Assembly: GCA_018696595.1 (NCBI GenBank)
Contig: JABHQW010000003.1
Coordinates: 177,907-241,906 of the forward strand
Source: Candidatus Woesearchaeota archaeon
GTDB taxonomy: Archaea > Nanobdellota > Nanobdellia > Woesearchaeales > GW2011-AR9
Length of the DNA: 64,000 nt
Direction of reading: 5' to 3'
Part shown: piece by piece, positions 29,293 through 42,532 of the stretch
How positions within the stretch are numbered: position 1 is the stretch's first letter
How the letters are laid out: every line of letters begins with the position of its first letter
Made by a program: the position numbers and the translations under genes
Notes under the pieces: model-generated
Database searches by the model: none
The model's input: the letters and a program-made list of their open reading frames with translations, nothing else
What the model was told of the DNA's origin: nothing

Positions 29293-29600
29293 AATGTTCA
29301 CAATGCGGTGTTTGTTGTAAATTATTTGTAATAAACCTTAATGAAGAAGAGTATCGTTCTGGTAAATTTAAAACTGTCTTTGAAAAGTTTGGTAATTTTG
29401 ATTGGAGAGAAGCAGAATTAATTGGCGCCCATTTACTTGCTCAGAAGGAAGATGGCCAAACTTGTATATATCTTCAAGAAGGAAAATGTTCTATCCATGA
29501 AGTTCGTCCGCAAGTATGTAGAGATTTCTTTTGTGATTCTAAAGAAGAATGGCACCAAGAGATGATTGAAAGAATAAAAAATTATAAAAAAGAGAATTAA
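29289..29600 (+). CDS. YkgJ-family Zn/Fe-chelating Cys cluster protein
   Basis: CSQCGVCCKLF..CIYLQEGKCSIHEVRPQVCRDFFC; ATGA overlap with mutL. Confidence 0.88.
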   Translation: MKCSQCGVCCKLFVINLNEEEYRSGKFKTVFEKFGNFDWREAELIGAHLLAQKEDGQTCIYLQEGKCSIHEVRPQVCRDFFCDSKEEWHQEMIERIKNYKKEN

Positions 29601-30739
29601 CCTCTTCGTTCTACTTTCTGCATCCAATCTTTAGTGTCTTCTACTTCTCCGGTTTGAATTCCTGTTAGTAATGCATACATCTCCGTACTTACTGATCCCA
29701 CTTGACCATCTCCTACAACCATTTCTCTGACTCTAGTTCTTTTTCGTTCGCCAAGATCCATAATAAAGCTACCAACAGGAGCAACAGTTGCTGCTGTTCC
29801 TAATCCACCAGTTTCGGTTATTTCTCCAAGAGCGATGTCAGTAACAAAATCTAAAGCTGAAACTTGTTCTTGTAATACAGGATGTCCTAAACGATCACCC
29901 AACTCTAAAAATGAACGGCTAGTAATAGATTCTAAAATAGTGTCAGTAAACTGGGGAATAATGATTTCCCCATCCCTAGTCACCATATAAACATTCATTG
30001 CTCCAGTTTCTTCAATAAATCTATCTGTTGCATCCATATAAAGCACTTGTTTAGCTCCAAATTCTTTTGCTCTTTCAGCTGCTTTTAAGGAAGCGGCATA
30101 ATTACCCCCAGTCTTAGCAGTCCCTACACTTTTAGGAGCAACACGTTTATGTTTATCAGTTAACATTAATTTAATAGGACTAAAGCCATCAGGGAAATAA
30201 GCACCACTAGGAGAAAGAAATGTACAGAAAACATAATCTGAACTTGGTTTTACTCCCAAAAAACCACCAGTACCAAACATAAATGGTCTGATATAAATAG
30301 AAGCATTATCTTGTTGTGGCATCCATAATCGTTCTACATCAAGCAAAGCATTAATTCCTTCTAACTGAACTTCTTCCGGAATTTCTGCCATACACATCTC
30401 TCTTGCTGAATGATTGAGACGATTAACGTTCTCATCTAACCTAAATGTATAAAGTTCCCCATCAGGATGTTGAAAAGCTTTTACTCCTTCAAAGATAGTT
30501 TGAGAATAATGTAATGTTGCCATGTTAGGCATTACATTTACTCTATTTACATGATTAGCGGTATCAACCACTTCAAATGGACCGTAAGGAACAATTCTTG
30601 GCGAATGCCATTCTCCATTAGAATGATCCATTAAAAACATATGGTCGGAAACTAATCCTCCAAACCCTAATGGTTCTTTTTGTTCAAATTGTTGTTGAAG
30701 TCGCTCAGATTTAGGTAGAAGATCGTATTGGATATCCAT
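29597..30739 (-). CDS. ilvE: Branched-chain amino acid aminotransferase (class IV)
   Basis: LHYSQTIFEGVKAF, GTAKTGGNYAASLKA, EETGAMNVY, TETGGLGTAA. Confidence 0.92.
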   Translation of the reverse strand: MDIQYDLLPKSERLQQQFEQKEPLGFGGLVSDHMFLMDHSNGEWHSPRIVPYGPFEVVDTANHVNRVNVMPNMATLHYSQTIFEGVKAFQHPDGELYTFRLDENVNRLNHSAREMCMAEIPEEVQLEGINALLDVERLWMPQQDNASIYIRPFMFGTGGFLGVKPSSDYVFCTFLSPSGAYFPDGFSPIKLMLTDKHKRVAPKSVGTAKTGGNYAASLKAAERAKEFGAKQVLYMDATDRFIEETGAMNVYMVTRDGEIIIPQFTDTILESITSRSFLELGDRLGHPVLQEQVSALDFVTDIALGEITETGGLGTAATVAPVGSFIMDLGERKRTRVREMVVGDGQVGSVSTEMYALLTGIQTGEVEDTKDWMQKVERRG

Positions 30740-30889
30740 TTTGGTTGGAAGTAATGGAACAATCTATTTAAACATTATTAATCAATATTCAATAGTGTTT
30801 ATGAGGAAATAAAGAATTGTTTATTGATTATCAAAATTTCTGTCATTTTATGAGAAAAGTTTATATATACTTACTCCTTAGTGGTAAAT

Positions 30890-32638
30890 ATGTCTCTTGA
30901 AGAAGATGAAAATCAATATACTGAAGAAGATTATGGGGGACCCCACTATAGAACTGGAGGCATGGCATATTATGGAGAAGGAGACTTAGAAGACAGATTA
31001 GGTTTCTTAGTAGCCAAACATGATAAAGATGGTGATGGTTGGGAACTTAGTACATCATGGGCATTATACTCAAAAGATGGTAATAATCGTAGATTTGGTG
31101 GTTCACATGATAATATTTCAGGAATAAGAACATTTCCAAATGGATTACAATTTCTAAATACTGATAACAAGATACAGCGTAGTTATTTCTCAATAGAAGG
31201 TATTGAATTTAGTGTTGGTTATCACGGACCCCAATCACATGATAACATAGTGGCTAATTTTGCAAATTGGCAAGAATATTTTAGTTATGATAGAATAAAT
31301 CCAAAAACTTTACAATCAGTTAAAAATTGGTTAATGGATGATAATAATCCAATAGATCAAATAAAAATAGAATTAGTTGCCGAAATTTCGGAAAAATGTT
31401 TATTAGATAAAAGTGAAGCACTCTTTGGGATTAATCCAAGTGAATTTTTAGATATATTCTCTGAAGGTTTAAGAAACCCATTTTATCAGAACTTATTTTC
31501 CCAAGTCATAGATTATTACTTTGAGCTGGGAGAGACTCAACTTAACCCTCATGAACTTAATGAAGCAATTGTTAAGAATACTGCTCAATGGTATTCCGAA
31601 GCAAGGCCATATGAAGAGGATCTTCGTAAAAAAGCTGATTCTTTGGCAGAAGGAGCAAATGCAAAGGATTGCTTAGATGCAATATTAAAACAGGGCCGAT
31701 TTTCCAGTGTTAAAGAGTTAGGAGAATGTGCAAGTATTCAATTACCACATCATTACGTCATCAAGAAACATGCTTCTGGAGGATGGAGCCAAGTATATCT
31801 AATTATAGATAAAGGAGAAACAGATGAAGATTTCATTAAAGTACTCAAAGTTCCAAAAAATAATATTGACATGAATAAAGATCCCAACGTTAAGAAAATA
31901 ATTGAAAAAAATTCTAGTATAGAAAACACCCTTAAAGCAATTGCGGAGGAGGAAAAGAGAATTAATAGCAAAACATCCAACACATCTAATGATAACTTTC
32001 CAAATTTTGAATATCGTCCATTGCCACAGTTCCACGAAAGTTACGTAGGGAATAACGGAATCCCATTATTAATTTACGAATTTATTCGTGGGGAAACCCT
32101 AGAAGATCATTTTGAAGAAGAAAGGCCACTTGAAGAAAAGTTAGATGTTTTAACTAGAACCGCATATTCATTAAACTATATTCACCAGAAAGGATTTACT
32201 CATAATGATATTAAAAAAGATAATTTCATGAGAAGTGAAGTTAATGATAGAGTTTACTTATTAGACTTAGGACTTTCCAGAGTTACTGAATCAGATTCAA
32301 GTATTCGTGGAAAAAGAGCTTATGCCGCTCCAGAAAGAATAACGGGACAATCTAACCCCTCTGAAGAAGCAGATCAATATAGTTTTGGAGTGATGGCTTA
32401 TGAAATTCTTACAGGAGAATTACCCATTGACTTTGGAGAAACTGAAGAAGAAAAAGCAGAGATGGTTATAAAAGTAAGAGATGGCGAAGTTCTTCCAGAT
32501 TACGAATTGCTTAGAGAAAGAGTACCTTCACAACTTGCAGAAATAATTGAAATTTGTTTATCTTACGACCCAAAAGACAGATACGGATCTATGCAAGAGG
32601 TTGAAGATCAATTATGGGCATTGCAGAATCCTGATTAG
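30890..32638 (+). CDS. Hanks-type Ser/Thr protein kinase with long novel N-terminal region
   Basis: HASGGWSQVYLI, VLKVPK, HNDIKKDN, YLLDLGLSR, AYAAPERI, EADQYSFGVMAYEILTGELP; leaderless ATG at 30890 about 27 nt after tttatatata. Confidence 0.92.
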   Translation: MSLEEDENQYTEEDYGGPHYRTGGMAYYGEGDLEDRLGFLVAKHDKDGDGWELSTSWALYSKDGNNRRFGGSHDNISGIRTFPNGLQFLNTDNKIQRSYFSIEGIEFSVGYHGPQSHDNIVANFANWQEYFSYDRINPKTLQSVKNWLMDDNNPIDQIKIELVAEISEKCLLDKSEALFGINPSEFLDIFSEGLRNPFYQNLFSQVIDYYFELGETQLNPHELNEAIVKNTAQWYSEARPYEEDLRKKADSLAEGANAKDCLDAILKQGRFSSVKELGECASIQLPHHYVIKKHASGGWSQVYLIIDKGETDEDFIKVLKVPKNNIDMNKDPNVKKIIEKNSSIENTLKAIAEEEKRINSKTSNTSNDNFPNFEYRPLPQFHESYVGNNGIPLLIYEFIRGETLEDHFEEERPLEEKLDVLTRTAYSLNYIHQKGFTHNDIKKDNFMRSEVNDRVYLLDLGLSRVTESDSSIRGKRAYAAPERITGQSNPSEEADQYSFGVMAYEILTGELPIDFGETEEEKAEMVIKVRDGEVLPDYELLRERVPSQLAEIIEICLSYDPKDRYGSMQEVEDQLWALQNPD

Positions 32639-32664
32639 TTCTCATCTCATTTAGAAACTATATT

Positions 32665-33576
32665 TTAATAATTTAATCCATAAAATGGCCCGGAGATATC
32701 CCAAAGTTTTCTCATAATATTAACTAAATGAGAAACAATAATATGTTCATCAGGACTTAACTTCTTTCTAAGATCATAATAAGTATGGAAAAGTAATTGG
32801 TCTTTGATTTTAGAAATCTCTTCAATCTTCTTGTTATTTTTTTCATAAAAAGCTTGATAAAACAACAACAATGCTTTATTTACTTCCTCAAAAAATTGTA
32901 AAGTGGCTTTTGATACTTTTTGAACAGAATGTTTAGAACAAAATTGATAAATATACCTATATTGATTAGAAATCTTTTCTAAGTTCCAAACAACCAAATA
33001 TTCAAAAATCATTGACTCCTGATTATTTCGATGCTTATTTAGAATTCTTTTACAAAAGTCAGTGTACTTGGTAATTACTTTAGCTTTATGGTGAATCTCT
33101 TCTAATTGGCTAAATTCTTTGTTTTTAAGACTATAAAATATTTCTTCACTAAGTTCCAATAAAAGAATAAAAGAATTTTTAAGAATATCATCAAACTCTG
33201 ATTCTAGTTGCATAGCAATATTTCTAACTTCACATTCTTTTTTTCTTCTAGAAACAACTTCAATTCCCAGAAGCCAATCAACAACACTTTGTATTTCCCT
33301 CAAAGCAGACTCGTCTTCATAATGGAAAATTATTTTATCGTAACCTTTTTTGTAAATATTACCAATTATTGCCCTTATGTTTGAATCAGTACTTTTCTTA
33401 ATCTCAACTTTAGTTTCTCCAACATGAACAGAGTTCCCGCCCCAAAGTTCGAGAATATTTCCTTTCTCATTTAAAGTTACTTCATCGCCTTTCTTGACGT
33501 TATATTTCTTAGTCCACTTAGCTGGTAAACTCACCATTAATGTTGCAGGGCCAACTTGACATACTTTTCTTTTCAT
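32665..33576 (-). CDS. AbrB-like + PhoU-like phosphate-regulator family protein
   Basis: N-terminal VCQVGPATLMVSLPAKWTKKYNVKKGDEVTL followed by helical PhoU-like region. Confidence 0.85.
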   Translation of the reverse strand: MKRKVCQVGPATLMVSLPAKWTKKYNVKKGDEVTLNEKGNILELWGGNSVHVGETKVEIKKSTDSNIRAIIGNIYKKGYDKIIFHYEDESALREIQSVVDWLLGIEVVSRRKKECEVRNIAMQLESEFDDILKNSFILLLELSEEIFYSLKNKEFSQLEEIHHKAKVITKYTDFCKRILNKHRNNQESMIFEYLVVWNLEKISNQYRYIYQFCSKHSVQKVSKATLQFFEEVNKALLLFYQAFYEKNNKKIEEISKIKDQLLFHTYYDLRKKLSPDEHIIVSHLVNIMRKLWDISGPFYGLNY

Positions 33577-33688
33577 ATTAAGATAGAAAAGGAGCAGATA
33601 TTTAAATATTTCGTTTTATTTAAATATAATTATGCATTATTATAATATAAGGATAATGTTTAAATGTTTAGCCAAATGATAGAATTCT

Positions 33689-34069
33689 ATGAAAAGCAAA
33701 ACATATTCCCGTTTCGGGAAATTATTGGAAGATTGTAAACCCTCATTGGGTCAATTGGGAGAAGCATTAATGAATTACGCTGTTAGTAGTGGAAAACAAT
33801 TCTTAGTAGAAAGAGAACAAAGAGAAAGCATAAAAGAAAATATTGGAGAAGAATATTTTCAATTAACTGGAAAAGAAACAAATGATCTCTTAAAAAATTA
33901 TATCTCAAGTTCAGTAAACCAAGGATGGCAACTTTACCAAGAGCATGGTGAGAAGAGAGCTGAGTTATTTACGATTGATCGGTTAAAGAAAGCCAAGGAT
34001 GATTTTACATTAGAAGCTAAAGTTGTTAGTGCAATTGATGCAAAAGTAGAATATTTAGAAAATAAATGA
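33689..34069 (+). CDS. Hypothetical protein (126 aa)
   Basis: First ORF of same-strand island with SD-led genes. Confidence 0.6.
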   Translation: MKSKTYSRFGKLLEDCKPSLGQLGEALMNYAVSSGKQFLVEREQRESIKENIGEEYFQLTGKETNDLLKNYISSSVNQGWQLYQEHGEKRAELFTIDRLKKAKDDFTLEAKVVSAIDAKVEYLENK

Positions 34070-34084
34070 TGAGGCAAATAAAAA

Positions 34085-34297
34085 ATGGTGAAATATGAAA
34101 AAAACACTTACGAATGGAGTGGTCCAACAGATGGAGTATTAGGAACATCAACATATCGAACTGATGTGTGGGATGATTCTGGATATAAAGTAGCAGAAGG
34201 AATAGGTTCTTCAAGAGAAGAAGCAGAAGACAATGCCAGAGATAATATTATTGAAGAAGGAGTAAACATGGGAGAATTCTATAAAACCATGGATTAA
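34085..34297 (+). CDS. Hypothetical protein (70 aa)
   Basis: Short ORF 15 nt after previous gene. Confidence 0.6.
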   Translation: MVKYEKNTYEWSGPTDGVLGTSTYRTDVWDDSGYKVAEGIGSSREEAEDNARDNIIEEGVNMGEFYKTMD

Positions 34298-34329
34298 GAA
34301 TAACTATTAATTACGGAGGAAAAATAAAA

Positions 34330-34770
34330 ATGGAAATGAGACCCCTTGAACATAAAATCGCCCTCCTAATTGATGGCCCAAATATGTACCCAATAGAGTT
34401 TAAAGAAATCAAAGAAATAGCAGAAAGATATGGAACAATTGTATTGACAGAAGTTTATCTTAACAAGCATGCTTCGAGAGGGTTAATTGAGGCAGCAATA
34501 AACGGAGGATATCGTCCAGTAATAGAAGCAATTGATGATATTGATACTTCTCTTTGTACTAGAGCCACAGAAATAATCTGTTCTCCACGTTATGAACAAG
34601 TAGATTTAATAGCAATTGCTAGTTGCGATGGAGATTATGTGCCTCTAACGCACAAAACAAAAGAATATGGCAAGAAATGTTTAGCTATTATGAGTGATAC
34701 CAATGGCAGATCTATTGCTTTAAAAAATTCTGTGGATTATCTTGAAATCATTAACCCGAGAACAGAATAA
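34330..34770 (+). CDS. NYN-domain (LabA-like, PIN-fold) putative RNase
   Basis: IALLIDGPNMYP and IASCDGDYVPL; GGAGG SD 11 nt upstream. Confidence 0.85.
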   Translation: MEMRPLEHKIALLIDGPNMYPIEFKEIKEIAERYGTIVLTEVYLNKHASRGLIEAAINGGYRPVIEAIDDIDTSLCTRATEIICSPRYEQVDLIAIASCDGDYVPLTHKTKEYGKKCLAIMSDTNGRSIALKNSVDYLEIINPRTE

Positions 34771-34804
34771 AAAAATAAAAAATAAAAGATTTGGAGGAAA
34801 GAAA

Positions 34805-34957
34805 ATGGAACCATTAGAAAAAATGATAGAAGGTTATAGAAGATTAGAAACAGAAATAGAAACAGATATTGGCTATCAAAAATTAGAAGTTAATTATGGG
34901 AACAAAGATTTAAAGTTAACCCATGAACAATGTCCAAGCCAATGTTCAAATAAGTAA
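34805..34957 (+). CDS. Putative RiPP-like precursor peptide (50 aa, C-terminal CPSQC)
   Basis: MEPLEKMIEGYRRLETEIETDIGYQKLEVNYGNKDLKLTHEQCPSQCSNK; SD ggagg at 34793-34797; ends 8 nt before rSAM ATG. Confidence 0.75.
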   Translation: MEPLEKMIEGYRRLETEIETDIGYQKLEVNYGNKDLKLTHEQCPSQCSNK

Positions 34958-34965
34958 TAACAAAA

Positions 34966-36342
34966 ATGATAATGACTAACCCGAAAACTCGGATATGGGA
35001 AATAGGAAATAAAAAAGTAATGTTTAATTCATTACATGGAAAGCCATTAATACCAACCGAGGGGTTAATCAGATTATTAGAAACTTTTAAAGAACCAAGA
35101 GACCAAGAAGACATCATCAAAACAGTTAGTCAAAAAGAATTAAGAATAATTGAGGACTTGGTCTCAATGGACTTTTTAATAAATCCCCTTAAAGATGTTT
35201 ATGAAAAAGTTAAAGAAAGAGAGAAACAAGAACTTAATAATAACTTAGAGGGATTAAACCTTTATAATCTTAGACTAAACGTAACCTCTTCTTGCAATCT
35301 TGCGTGTCAATATTGTTATGTATATCAAAGAAAAGAAGAAATTTCTTCTTTTAAAAATATGAGTACAGAAATTGCAGAAAAATCAATATCTCTTTTCTTT
35401 AAATTTCTTAAAGAAAAAGAAGAGCAAAGAATACAAACAAAAGCTATTCCCAAAATAAGATATTTTGGAGGGGAACCCTTAATCAATTTCCCAGTAGTCA
35501 AAAGAAGCGTAGAACTAACAAGTCGTTTGGCAGAACAATACAATATTAAGGTCCAATCGATAATCAACACAAATGGTACAATATATGATCAGGAGATAGA
35601 AAAATTTCTTTTAAGTAACCAAGATTTAAATTTAATAATTAGTTGGGATGGATTAGGAGATTACCATGATTTAGTAAGACATTCCAAAAATAATGAAAAA
35701 AGTAGTAAAAAGATAATGAAGAACTTTGAAAGGATGATGGACCAAGGGATAAGACCCACCATCAGTTGTGTACTATCAGAAAGAAATAAGGACCACCTTA
35801 AAGAATTCATTGATTATTTAGCAGAAAAAAAATTAAAATATTTTGGCATTAGTGTACAAACAGTCTCACAAACAGGCGACAAAATGAGTTCAGAAGAAAA
35901 AGCAAAAAGATTAATAGAAGTTATGAGTTATGCTAAAGAAAAAGGAATTGAAGTTGATGGGCCGTGGTCTTGGCAATACAGGTTATTTAATGACAACACA
36001 GAAGTTTCTTATTGTGGAGCAGTAGGAGGAGAAATCCATGTAAGTGAAAATGGAACAGCCCACCCCTGCCATTTAGTTAAACTAAAATATGGTGATATCA
36101 CAAAAATAAAAAAACTAGAAGAATTATTTGTTTCTCAAGAATATAAAACAATAATTAACAGAACAATATCTGCAATGTATGATGATTGTAATTCTTGCGA
36201 TTTAGAAGGTTTATGCGCAGGTGGATGCATGGCAGAATCCTATGAAAGAACAGGAGATTATTCGAAAAGAGGAGAAGGGTGTGAATTTAAAGTAGAAATG
36301 ACAAAACAGTTATTAGAAAAATATCTAGAAGAGATGGACTAA
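34966..36342 (+). CDS. Radical SAM/SPASM peptide-maturase-like enzyme
   Basis: TSSCNLACQYCYVY (CxxxCxxC); C-terminal CGAVGGEIHVSENGTAHPCHLV..CNSCDLEGLCAGGCMAES..GEGC; N-terminal about 80 aa RRE/PqqD-like. Confidence 0.92.
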   Translation: MIMTNPKTRIWEIGNKKVMFNSLHGKPLIPTEGLIRLLETFKEPRDQEDIIKTVSQKELRIIEDLVSMDFLINPLKDVYEKVKEREKQELNNNLEGLNLYNLRLNVTSSCNLACQYCYVYQRKEEISSFKNMSTEIAEKSISLFFKFLKEKEEQRIQTKAIPKIRYFGGEPLINFPVVKRSVELTSRLAEQYNIKVQSIINTNGTIYDQEIEKFLLSNQDLNLIISWDGLGDYHDLVRHSKNNEKSSKKIMKNFERMMDQGIRPTISCVLSERNKDHLKEFIDYLAEKKLKYFGISVQTVSQTGDKMSSEEKAKRLIEVMSYAKEKGIEVDGPWSWQYRLFNDNTEVSYCGAVGGEIHVSENGTAHPCHLVKLKYGDITKIKKLEELFVSQEYKTIINRTISAMYDDCNSCDLEGLCAGGCMAESYERTGDYSKRGEGCEFKVEMTKQLLEKYLEEMD

Positions 36343-36382
36343 TTAAAACAAATTTTACAAAAATAATTAGGTGGTAAAAAAG

Positions 36383-36502
36383 ATGAAACAACAATGCCAA
36401 GCTAAATGCCGCAATGAGACTGATTGCTTAAATAAAGCTTTACCAGAATCAGATTATTGCTGGTTACATAAAAGAAGAGAAAAAGAGAGTAATAAACAAT
36501 GA
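36383..36502 (+). CDS. Small Cys-rich peptide (39 aa)
   Basis: MKQQCQAKCRNETDCLNKALPESDYCWLHKRREKESNKQ; preceded by ggtgg; below track length cutoff. Confidence 0.65.
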   Translation: MKQQCQAKCRNETDCLNKALPESDYCWLHKRREKESNKQ

Positions 36503-36578
36503 AAAAGTTTAAATATATAGAAAGCACATTATTTAATAGAAAGCTTTTTTCAACCACAACAAAAAAGGTCTTAATTAA

Positions 36579-36707
36579 ATGGAAATAAATAAACTCATCT
36601 TTTCTTTAATAAAAATAAGTGTCCTTTCATTCACGGTGTGGTATCTTTATAATGATACAAAAAAAAGAATGAACCATAGTACTGTTGTAGAAGAGAAAGA
36701 AAAATAA
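36579..36707 (+). CDS. Small single-TM peptide (42 aa)
   Basis: MEINKLIFSLIKISVLSFTVWYLYNDTKKRMNHSTVVEEKEK; TATA-like tttaaatatata at about 36509. Confidence 0.5.
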   Translation: MEINKLIFSLIKISVLSFTVWYLYNDTKKRMNHSTVVEEKEK

Positions 36708-36735
36708 AGAACAAAGGAAAAGATAACAAATAAAA

Positions 36736-37809
36736 ATGGCAGAAGGAATAGTAGCAATTATTGTAGCAGGGATTATAGGGTTCCGATTATGGTCCCATTA
36801 TAACCGCAATGGTCGGAATAAAATAGATCGAAAATCTAGGGAGAATCAACAGACATACCAGAACCATACTTATACAACTGCATATGAGACCGCAAATTCA
36901 CATAAACACATACAACAAGAAAATATTAAACTGATCAGAGGAATTAACTTCCAAAGATTTAAAAAAATCAAGTATGTTCCAAAAGAAAGAGATTATTTCT
37001 CAGATTTAGAAGAATTAATTAAATTAGGAATCACCCCTCACATCTTTGTTGAGTCTTTAATGGCCGTTCATTTAGAAGGGAGAAAAGCCAGTTGCTGTTT
37101 TTCAGATCAGATAAATTTTCAGTCTTCAATCGAACAATTAGAACTAATTGCTAAAAAAATAAAAGAGGACTATAACATTTTCATGGATGCGATTGCAATT
37201 CCCTTTGGTAAAGGATGTATGATGCTTTTCTTTTTCTTCAAAGACATCAAAGAATATAAAAGAATAGAGAAGTTACAAAAAATTAGTGAGAACCCAGATA
37301 TATCCCTCGAAAAAATCTTCAAAAACCCAGAATTAGTGAAATTATGGGGAGAAATATTAGATTATCCAAAATGTTGTGTTGATTTCTGTGTTGAAACAAG
37401 GAAAGGCAATAAAGATATAGAAAAAGAATGTTCTGAAATGTTAAAATCCATCCAAGAATATAAGAAAGTTGACAAAAGTAAGATTAAAAAAGATGAAAAA
37501 GATAACGATAAGAAAGAATTATCTATTCCAGAGAAAGTTTTGACAAATTACTTTGCTTACGAATTTTATCCTTGTAATCCTAACTGTAAAGAAGCCAAGA
37601 GAATTGGAGATGAAATTAAGAAAAGATTTAGTGAAAAAGATAAAAATCTTGCTACAGCATTTCAAATCAACTCAGAATTTAACAGCCGTAAAGTGCTAAA
37701 TCTCTGTACTGATCCAAAAATGGAAAAATTCCAGAACATGATGAAAGACAGAATTATTCATCGTTTATTTTCTGTTCATCATGAAGCTAAAAAACTTAAA
37801 ACCAAATAA
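36736..37809 (+). CDS. Membrane-anchored DUF483-like protein
   Basis: N-terminal TM; YPKCCVDFCVETRKG and YEFYPCNPNCKEAKRIGDEI. Confidence 0.75.
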   Translation: MAEGIVAIIVAGIIGFRLWSHYNRNGRNKIDRKSRENQQTYQNHTYTTAYETANSHKHIQQENIKLIRGINFQRFKKIKYVPKERDYFSDLEELIKLGITPHIFVESLMAVHLEGRKASCCFSDQINFQSSIEQLELIAKKIKEDYNIFMDAIAIPFGKGCMMLFFFFKDIKEYKRIEKLQKISENPDISLEKIFKNPELVKLWGEILDYPKCCVDFCVETRKGNKDIEKECSEMLKSIQEYKKVDKSKIKKDEKDNDKKELSIPEKVLTNYFAYEFYPCNPNCKEAKRIGDEIKKRFSEKDKNLATAFQINSEFNSRKVLNLCTDPKMEKFQNMMKDRIIHRLFSVHHEAKKLKTK

Positions 37810-37931
37810 TTCATTTTTCCAATACATAATAAAAAGCAAAGCTTTTTGGGATGTCCTGGAAAATATTTCTTTTTCCAATAGATTTAAGTAACAGTAAACA
37901 TTTCTCAAATTCAGTTAAAAGAGGTCAATAA

Positions 37932-41779: not shown

Positions 41780-42532
41780 ATGACATTATATTTAATTGGG
41801 ATTGGACTAAGTACAGAAAAAGACATCACAGTTAAAGGATTAGAAATTGTTAAGAAATGTGATAAAGTTTACTTAGAAAGTTATACTTCACTATTACAAT
41901 GTTCTGTTAAGGATTTGGAACAGTTTTATGATCAAGAAATTATTATTGCAAACCGAGAAATGACTGAACAAGGAGATGAAAAAATTATTTCTGAAGCTAA
42001 AAAAAAAGATGTTGCTTTCTTAATTATTGGCGACGTTTTTTCTGCTACAACCCACGTTCAGCTGTTTAAATTGGCTAAAGAAAATAATGTTAAAGTTGAA
42101 GTAATTAATAATGCTTCAGTATTAAATTCTGTAGGGATTACTGGATTAGAATTATACAAATTTGGTAAAATCACTTCTATCCCTTTTATTGAAGACCATC
42201 CTCAGTTAGAAACACCTTATAACGTTTTGAAGGAGAATGGCGATATGCACACTTTGTTTTTACTTGATTTAAAGCCCGCTGAGAATAAGTTTATGACCAT
42301 TAATGTTGCACTAGAGATTCTGGAAAAAATCGAATCACGGAAGAAAGAAGGGTTAATTAACGATGATTTGTTAGTTGTTGGTTGCGCTCGTCTTGGATGT
42401 GATGGTTTTATTGTTAAAGCAGGTAAGTTATCTGAAATTCGGGCGTTCGATTTTGGTGCACCGTTACATTGTTTAATCATTCCAGGCAAGATGCATTTTA
42501 TTGAAAAAGAAATGTTAGAGTTATGGAAGTAA
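41780..42532 (+). CDS. dph5: Diphthine synthase
   Basis: MTLYLIGIGLSTEKDITVKGLEIVKKCDKVYLESYTS. Confidence 0.95.
   Translation: MTLYLIGIGLSTEKDITVKGLEIVKKCDKVYLESYTSLLQCSVKDLEQFYDQEIIIANREMTEQGDEKIISEAKKKDVAFLIIGDVFSATTHVQLFKLAKENNVKVEVINNASVLNSVGITGLELYKFGKITSIPFIEDHPQLETPYNVLKENGDMHTLFLLDLKPAENKFMTINVALEILEKIESRKKEGLINDDLLVVGCARLGCDGFIVKAGKLSEIRAFDFGAPLHCLIIPGKMHFIEKEMLELWK

Follow-up and report, generated by a model that had tools for sequence, protein, structure and literature searches.

We propose that two adjacent genes in the genome of a woesearchaeal archaeon form a RiPP cassette, in which a 50-residue peptide is modified at Cys43/Cys47 by a radical SAM (rSAM)/SPASM enzyme with an N-terminal RRE. 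We put the probability of this reading at about 0.7. It is highly probable that the peptide is the substrate of the enzyme, and the odds of a Cys thioether as the product are a little better than even. The two genes lie within a 64,000-nucleotide stretch of DNA, referred to here as the window, whose numbering is used for all positions. An earlier note on this DNA had placed the pathway in a small-genome archaeon. This is supported by a diphthine synthase gene (Dph5, 1.2e-86) at 41780-42532, which points to an archaeal origin, and by the assembly itself, which amounts to 1.19 Mb and is 97% complete.

The candidate precursor, MEPLEKMIEGYRRLETEIETDIGYQKLEVNYGNKDLKLTHEQCPSQCSNK, is encoded at 34805-34957 on the forward strand and occurs in a single copy in the genome. 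A GGAGG Shine-Dalgarno sequence (34793-34797, forward strand) lies 7 nt upstream of its ATG, and its end is followed after 8 nt by the ATG of the rSAM gene (34966) on the same strand. The short Shine-Dalgarno-led frame that the earlier note had reported directly before the rSAM gene is thus borne out in its coordinates, sequences, GGAGG and gap. The arrangement GGAGG-N5-9-ATG is found seven times on the two strands of the whole window, and three of these sites open long frames, of 50, 475 and 512 codons. By inspection, there is no comparable Shine-Dalgarno site before the rSAM gene, which is probably translated by coupling to the peptide gene, so that the peptide would be made in excess of the enzyme.

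The region 34805-34957 is a real gene. With a codon model built from the long genes of the window itself, the peptide gene has a log-odds of 0.35 bits per codon, which is near the 75th percentile among 58 long genes and exceeds that of each of the 149 spurious ORFs (35-75 aa). This settles in favour of coding a check that had been suggested for the frame. The peptide has no match in Pfam and a chance match alone in NCBIfam (E 0.09), and a search over 350 genomes found no homolog, only noise (E >= 0.037); none of the five matches that were inspected contains an rSAM gene. An empty homolog search is what one would expect if the 50-codon frame were no gene at all, but given the strong Shine-Dalgarno sequence and a codon score that beats every spurious ORF, this is very improbable. 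Near the C-terminus, the sequence CPSQC (Cys43-X3-Cys47; 34931-34945, forward strand) is a candidate core, chosen from the sequence and from the CX3C cores found near relatives. Two cysteines near a C-terminus are weak evidence when taken alone, as three of 58 window proteins have them.

The downstream gene (34966-36342, forward strand) encodes a putative radical SAM/SPASM peptide maturase of 458 aa. Pfam recognizes both a radical SAM domain (PF04055, 1.2e-17) and a SPASM domain (PF13186, 4.1e-5). The radical SAM motif CX3CX2C, formed by C110-C114-C117, is encoded at 35293-35316, and the SPASM domain, with seven conserved cysteines in invariant columns, at 36013-36282, both on the forward strand. 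The SPASM set follows the pattern C350-X12-G-X4-C368...C408-X2-C411-X5-C417-X3-C421...C439, and the alignment indicates that the cluster ligands in both domains are kept in relatives. The CX3CX2C motif and the SPASM-like seven-Cys C-terminus noticed previously are therefore both complete.

The leading NCBIfam matches of the enzyme are mostly peptide maturases, with PapB (NF047865) in first place at 1e-45, although no curated cut-off is reached by any of the matches listed, the best being PapB with 156.4 of 340 bits. An AlphaFold model of the whole protein has a pLDDT of 84 and a pTM of 0.85. Among solved structures, Foldseek ranks TigE first (8vpo, 2.3e-22) and CteB second (5wgg, 8.7e-21), and further matches include anaerobic sulfatase maturases, SuiB and ChlB. 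A peptide-maturase role is likely. PADLOC also matched the enzyme to viperin (8e-15), a reading that we rejected since only the radical SAM core is shared. The enzyme family and its precursor are claimed by no model that we used.

The extra N-terminal domain of the enzyme had been proposed to resemble an RRE or PqqD, with an AlphaFold check suggested, and structure prediction agrees. Residues 1-72 (34966-35181, forward strand) are predicted to adopt an RRE fold of three strands followed by three helices. When the first 94 residues were modelled alone, the same strands and helices were obtained, followed by a linker helix, with a pLDDT of 84. Each of the best 22 solved structures matched by the domain on its own is either an RRE or a RiPP enzyme that bears one, including TbiB1, PbtF, ThcOx, McbB, a heterocyclase, MccB and CteB; the best probabilities are 0.96-1.00 but the E-values are at least 0.037, as the domain is small, and the list is uniform. 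Pfam finds no PqqD domain in the N-terminus, nor in a SCIFF control protein (L059), and we therefore regard its PqqD models as uninformative here. RRE domains bind leader peptides. The TigE structure 8vpo also belongs to the reference structures of a 2025 RRE survey (PMC12710340).

The cassette is part of a block of about 8.2 kb (29592-37814, located with blastn) that is absent from a sister species, whose adjacent exchanger protein is 87% identical. Along a single contig of that species, homology breaks off at 29591 and picks up again at 37815, and on these grounds we consider the block accessory. It also encodes aminotransferase-like, protein kinase, AbrB-like, NYN nuclease, small zinc-finger-like and DUF483 proteins. 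No direct repeats of at least 10 nt were found between the two boundary regions, and a search of the sister species with the DUF483 protein was empty. The kinase-like protein (30881-32638) matches the PADLOC models mad6 (3.7e-35) and PD-T4-6 (2.4e-31), probably through the kinase domain alone. The small zinc-finger-like protein (36383-36502) begins 40 nt after the rSAM gene; it is a Cys-rich protein of 39 aa with a CX3C of its own and a weak likeness to HGGxSTG/zf-C3Hc3H. Beside the peptide/rSAM pair we recognised neither a protease gene nor an exporter gene.

Relatives of the enzyme are distant. Searching about 350 genomes of the order turned up no ortholog of the peptide gene or of the rSAM gene, the best rSAM homolog there being 29% identical, and a pattern search found no close rSAM orthologs in the public genome set or in viral contigs. 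The best full-length homolog is from the Lachnospiraceae (L058, 156 bits). In a phylogenetic tree the window protein groups with this homolog and two proteins from Patescibacteria (L060 and L141) with support of 97/91, and the sister group is made up of proteins from Patescibacteria and from archaea, both of this order and of others. When TigE is added it joins this group (83/81), with support below the starred level. Few further members came from searching the order to which the Patescibacteria homolog belongs and the family of the Lachnospiraceae one.

Short Cys-containing peptides recur beside these relatives. Of 45 rSAM homologs, 19 adjoin an ORF of 25-110 aa that has two or more cysteines, compared with 7 of the 44 genes used as controls (p = 0.006), and for four or more cysteines the counts are 12 and 2, respectively (p = 0.004); the comparison was designed after the pattern had been seen, mixes subfamilies and includes some HxsD-like matches that are not precursors. 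For example, a 32-aa Shine-Dalgarno-led ORF ending VVIVCTCRQQSNCS lies 3′ of L141, and a 34-aa ORF with KLCMQSGGCTDNPS lies 5′ of L143, the Cys segment of the latter peptide being also given as KLCMQSGGCTDNPSKKK. Cys-rich peptides also adjoin L053 and L047. In one subfamily, the peptides upstream of L046, L048 and L054 carry one to three RCxGWCH cores, which are CX3C as in CPSQC; the L054 peptide contains FRCKGWCHKG, and NCBIfam has no model that matches the L048 peptide.

The archaeal peptides of L046, L048 and L054, with their cores before a conserved rSAM/SPASM gene, are a multi-core RiPP candidate. A 63-aa peptide with WSDGWDDWSDGGWNDQWANWDDG lies just before the rSAM/SPASM gene of L002 (1043-1234, reverse-complement coordinates) and resembles a Trp-rich RiPP precursor. 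The 72-aa peptides of L055 (850-1068) and L056 (1146-1364, both in reverse-complement coordinates) overlap the start of the rSAM/SPASM gene, end in GAAHPGCCKQ and are near-identical across two genomes. Furthermore, the archaeal rSAM/SPASM genes L044, L025, L026, L027, L034 and L038 adjoin further rSAM and HxsD-like genes and resemble His-Xaa-Ser systems. A protein with a long His-Xaa-Ser (SHGSHG) repeat follows the rSAM/SPASM gene of L044 (2784-3176, reverse-complement coordinates).

The Lachnospiraceae homolog has no short peptide beside its gene, and its neighbours are a phosphoribosyltransferase-like gene, a dehydrogenase and an aminotransferase-like gene. It is mainly this locus that argues against a peptide partner being universal. 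Together with the Cys-rich nature of the small protein downstream of the window enzyme, a homolog set among metabolic genes would suit an enzyme that modifies another target, such as the 39-aa zinc-finger-like protein or a small molecule, with the 50-aa protein unrelated to it. We consider this unlikely, given that RRE domains bind leader peptides, that the peptide and rSAM genes are 8 nt apart on the same strand and that the peptide has a high coding score.

If the 50-aa peptide is the substrate, as we favour, the cassette may work as follows. The strong Shine-Dalgarno sequence would cause the peptide to be produced in excess, and the downstream enzyme would use its RRE to hold the acidic leader, which spans roughly residues 1-38. 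A residue close to the C-terminus of the peptide would lose a hydrogen to the radical SAM cluster, while Cys43 and/or Cys47 of CPSQC may be bound at a site left open on the first auxiliary [4Fe-4S] cluster. A CPSQC cysteine would then form a thioether to that carbon near the C-terminus, with a change of -2 Da per bond. Could a RiPP-type enzyme perform some other chemistry on the same peptide, for instance forming a cyclophane or an ether, or epimerizing a residue? SPASM maturases of many chemistries give similarly weak NCBIfam scores, and His40 and several Tyr residues are available in the peptide. That said, its C-terminus lacks the aromatic-X-X repeat that is typical of three-residue cyclophanes and Cys peptides recur beside relatives, which makes this alternative improbable.

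The kind of cluster described here is already known. The parts of an antiSMASH survey considered here list predicted ranthipeptide/sactipeptide-type clusters among archaeal RiPPs, with predictions that span Asgard, TACK and DPANN archaea, and, all cluster types taken together, 221 in Nanoarchaeota (PMC12144867). These are survey-level predictions, and in those parts of the survey the enzyme family, precursor and structure found in the window are not described. The suggestion that the system is possibly undescribed hence holds for the family and fails for the kind, since rSAM RiPP clusters had already been predicted in DPANN archaea. Most of these archaea have never been grown in culture, and hardly any product of their predicted RiPP clusters has been characterised. 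Short Cys peptides by rSAM/SPASM genes recur over several archaeal orders and Patescibacteria, and the two-gene cassette of the window is small enough for co-expression. The enzyme falls between thioether synthases on one side and a cyclopropyl synthase on the other, so its product would reveal how the outcome of the reaction is set by the ligand of the auxiliary cluster.

Comparison with characterised maturases retains the earlier reading of a RiPP system; it does not bear out the sactipeptide/ranthipeptide label, as the peptide lacks the PapB acceptor motif CX3D/E and TigE, the nearest solved relative, is a cyclopropane-forming enzyme. In a sactipeptide, the thioether joins a Cys sulfur to an alpha-carbon. 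PapB, a ranthipeptide maturase, is the best NCBIfam match over the rSAM and SPASM domains and shares a Cys-containing core. However, the window enzyme falls short of the NF047865 cut-off and its precursor has no Cys-X3-Asp/Glu motif, thus we rejected assignment to this family. PapB needs Cys-X3-Asp/Glu in that order and refuses the reversed order (PMC9413430), and neither Cys43 nor Cys47 is followed by Asp or Glu in the peptide sequence, so strict PapB chemistry is unlikely.

TigE (PDB 8vpo, from Paramaledivibacter caminithermalis) resembles the window enzyme over its full length, including the RRE (phmmer 6.9e-24, residues 15-452; Foldseek TM 0.71). TigE makes cyclopropanes, not thioethers; its precursor, TigB, is said to contain repeats, and the Tyr of its GYW motif is reported to be a ligand of the first auxiliary cluster. 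In contrast, the window enzyme has Pro333 at this position (G332-P333-W334; 35959-35967, forward strand), and the alignment gives GFW for L060 and L141 and GKW for L058. With the Tyr missing, we rejected assignment to the cyclopropyl synthases TigE/TvgB. The Pro would leave the auxiliary-cluster site free for a substrate Cys. Since an open site would suit such a Cys and strict PapB chemistry is unlikely, a thioether at Cys43 or Cys47 is our best guess, not a result.

The likeness to TigE nonetheless raises the prospect of a RiPP maturase on the cyclopropyl-synthase side, which forms a C-C bond or makes another change on an aliphatic residue and leaves the Cys pair as a metal or disulfide site only. 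TigE is the best match in both structure and sequence and joins the clade of the window protein in the tree. Ile22 of the peptide (TDIGY) gives an Ile-Gly that recalls the TVGG motif of the TvgA precursor (PMC9062424), and a Val is also a possible target. Against this stand the Pro in place of the GYW Tyr, the modest support of that clade and a peptide with a C-terminal CX3C in place of the repeated TIG/TVGG of the TigE/TvgB precursors; we judge it a poor prospect beside Cys modification. A bolder idea, which we hold to be rather doubtful, is that a maturase lineage of small-genome archaea and Patescibacteria, which shares ancestry with cyclopropyl synthases, lacks the Tyr ligand and uses the open site for Cys cross-linking of peptides with C-terminal Cys cores. 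If true, the Tyr-less lineage would form a RiPP subfamily that is as yet undescribed, and would provide a natural switch between the two chemistries, cyclopropane and thioether.

CteB, a SCIFF thioether maturase (PDB 5wgg) and the second-best fold match, has the RRE-rSAM-SPASM layout in common with the window enzyme. An open auxiliary-cluster site in CteB has reportedly been proposed to bind a substrate Cys. The window enzyme differs in scoring 103 of 425 bits against the SCIFF model TIGR03974, below its cut-off, and in having a precursor that is not a six-Cys SCIFF peptide, and we rejected a SCIFF assignment for these reasons. Along with TigE and CteB, the RiPP maturase SuiB is among the best solved relatives of the enzyme.
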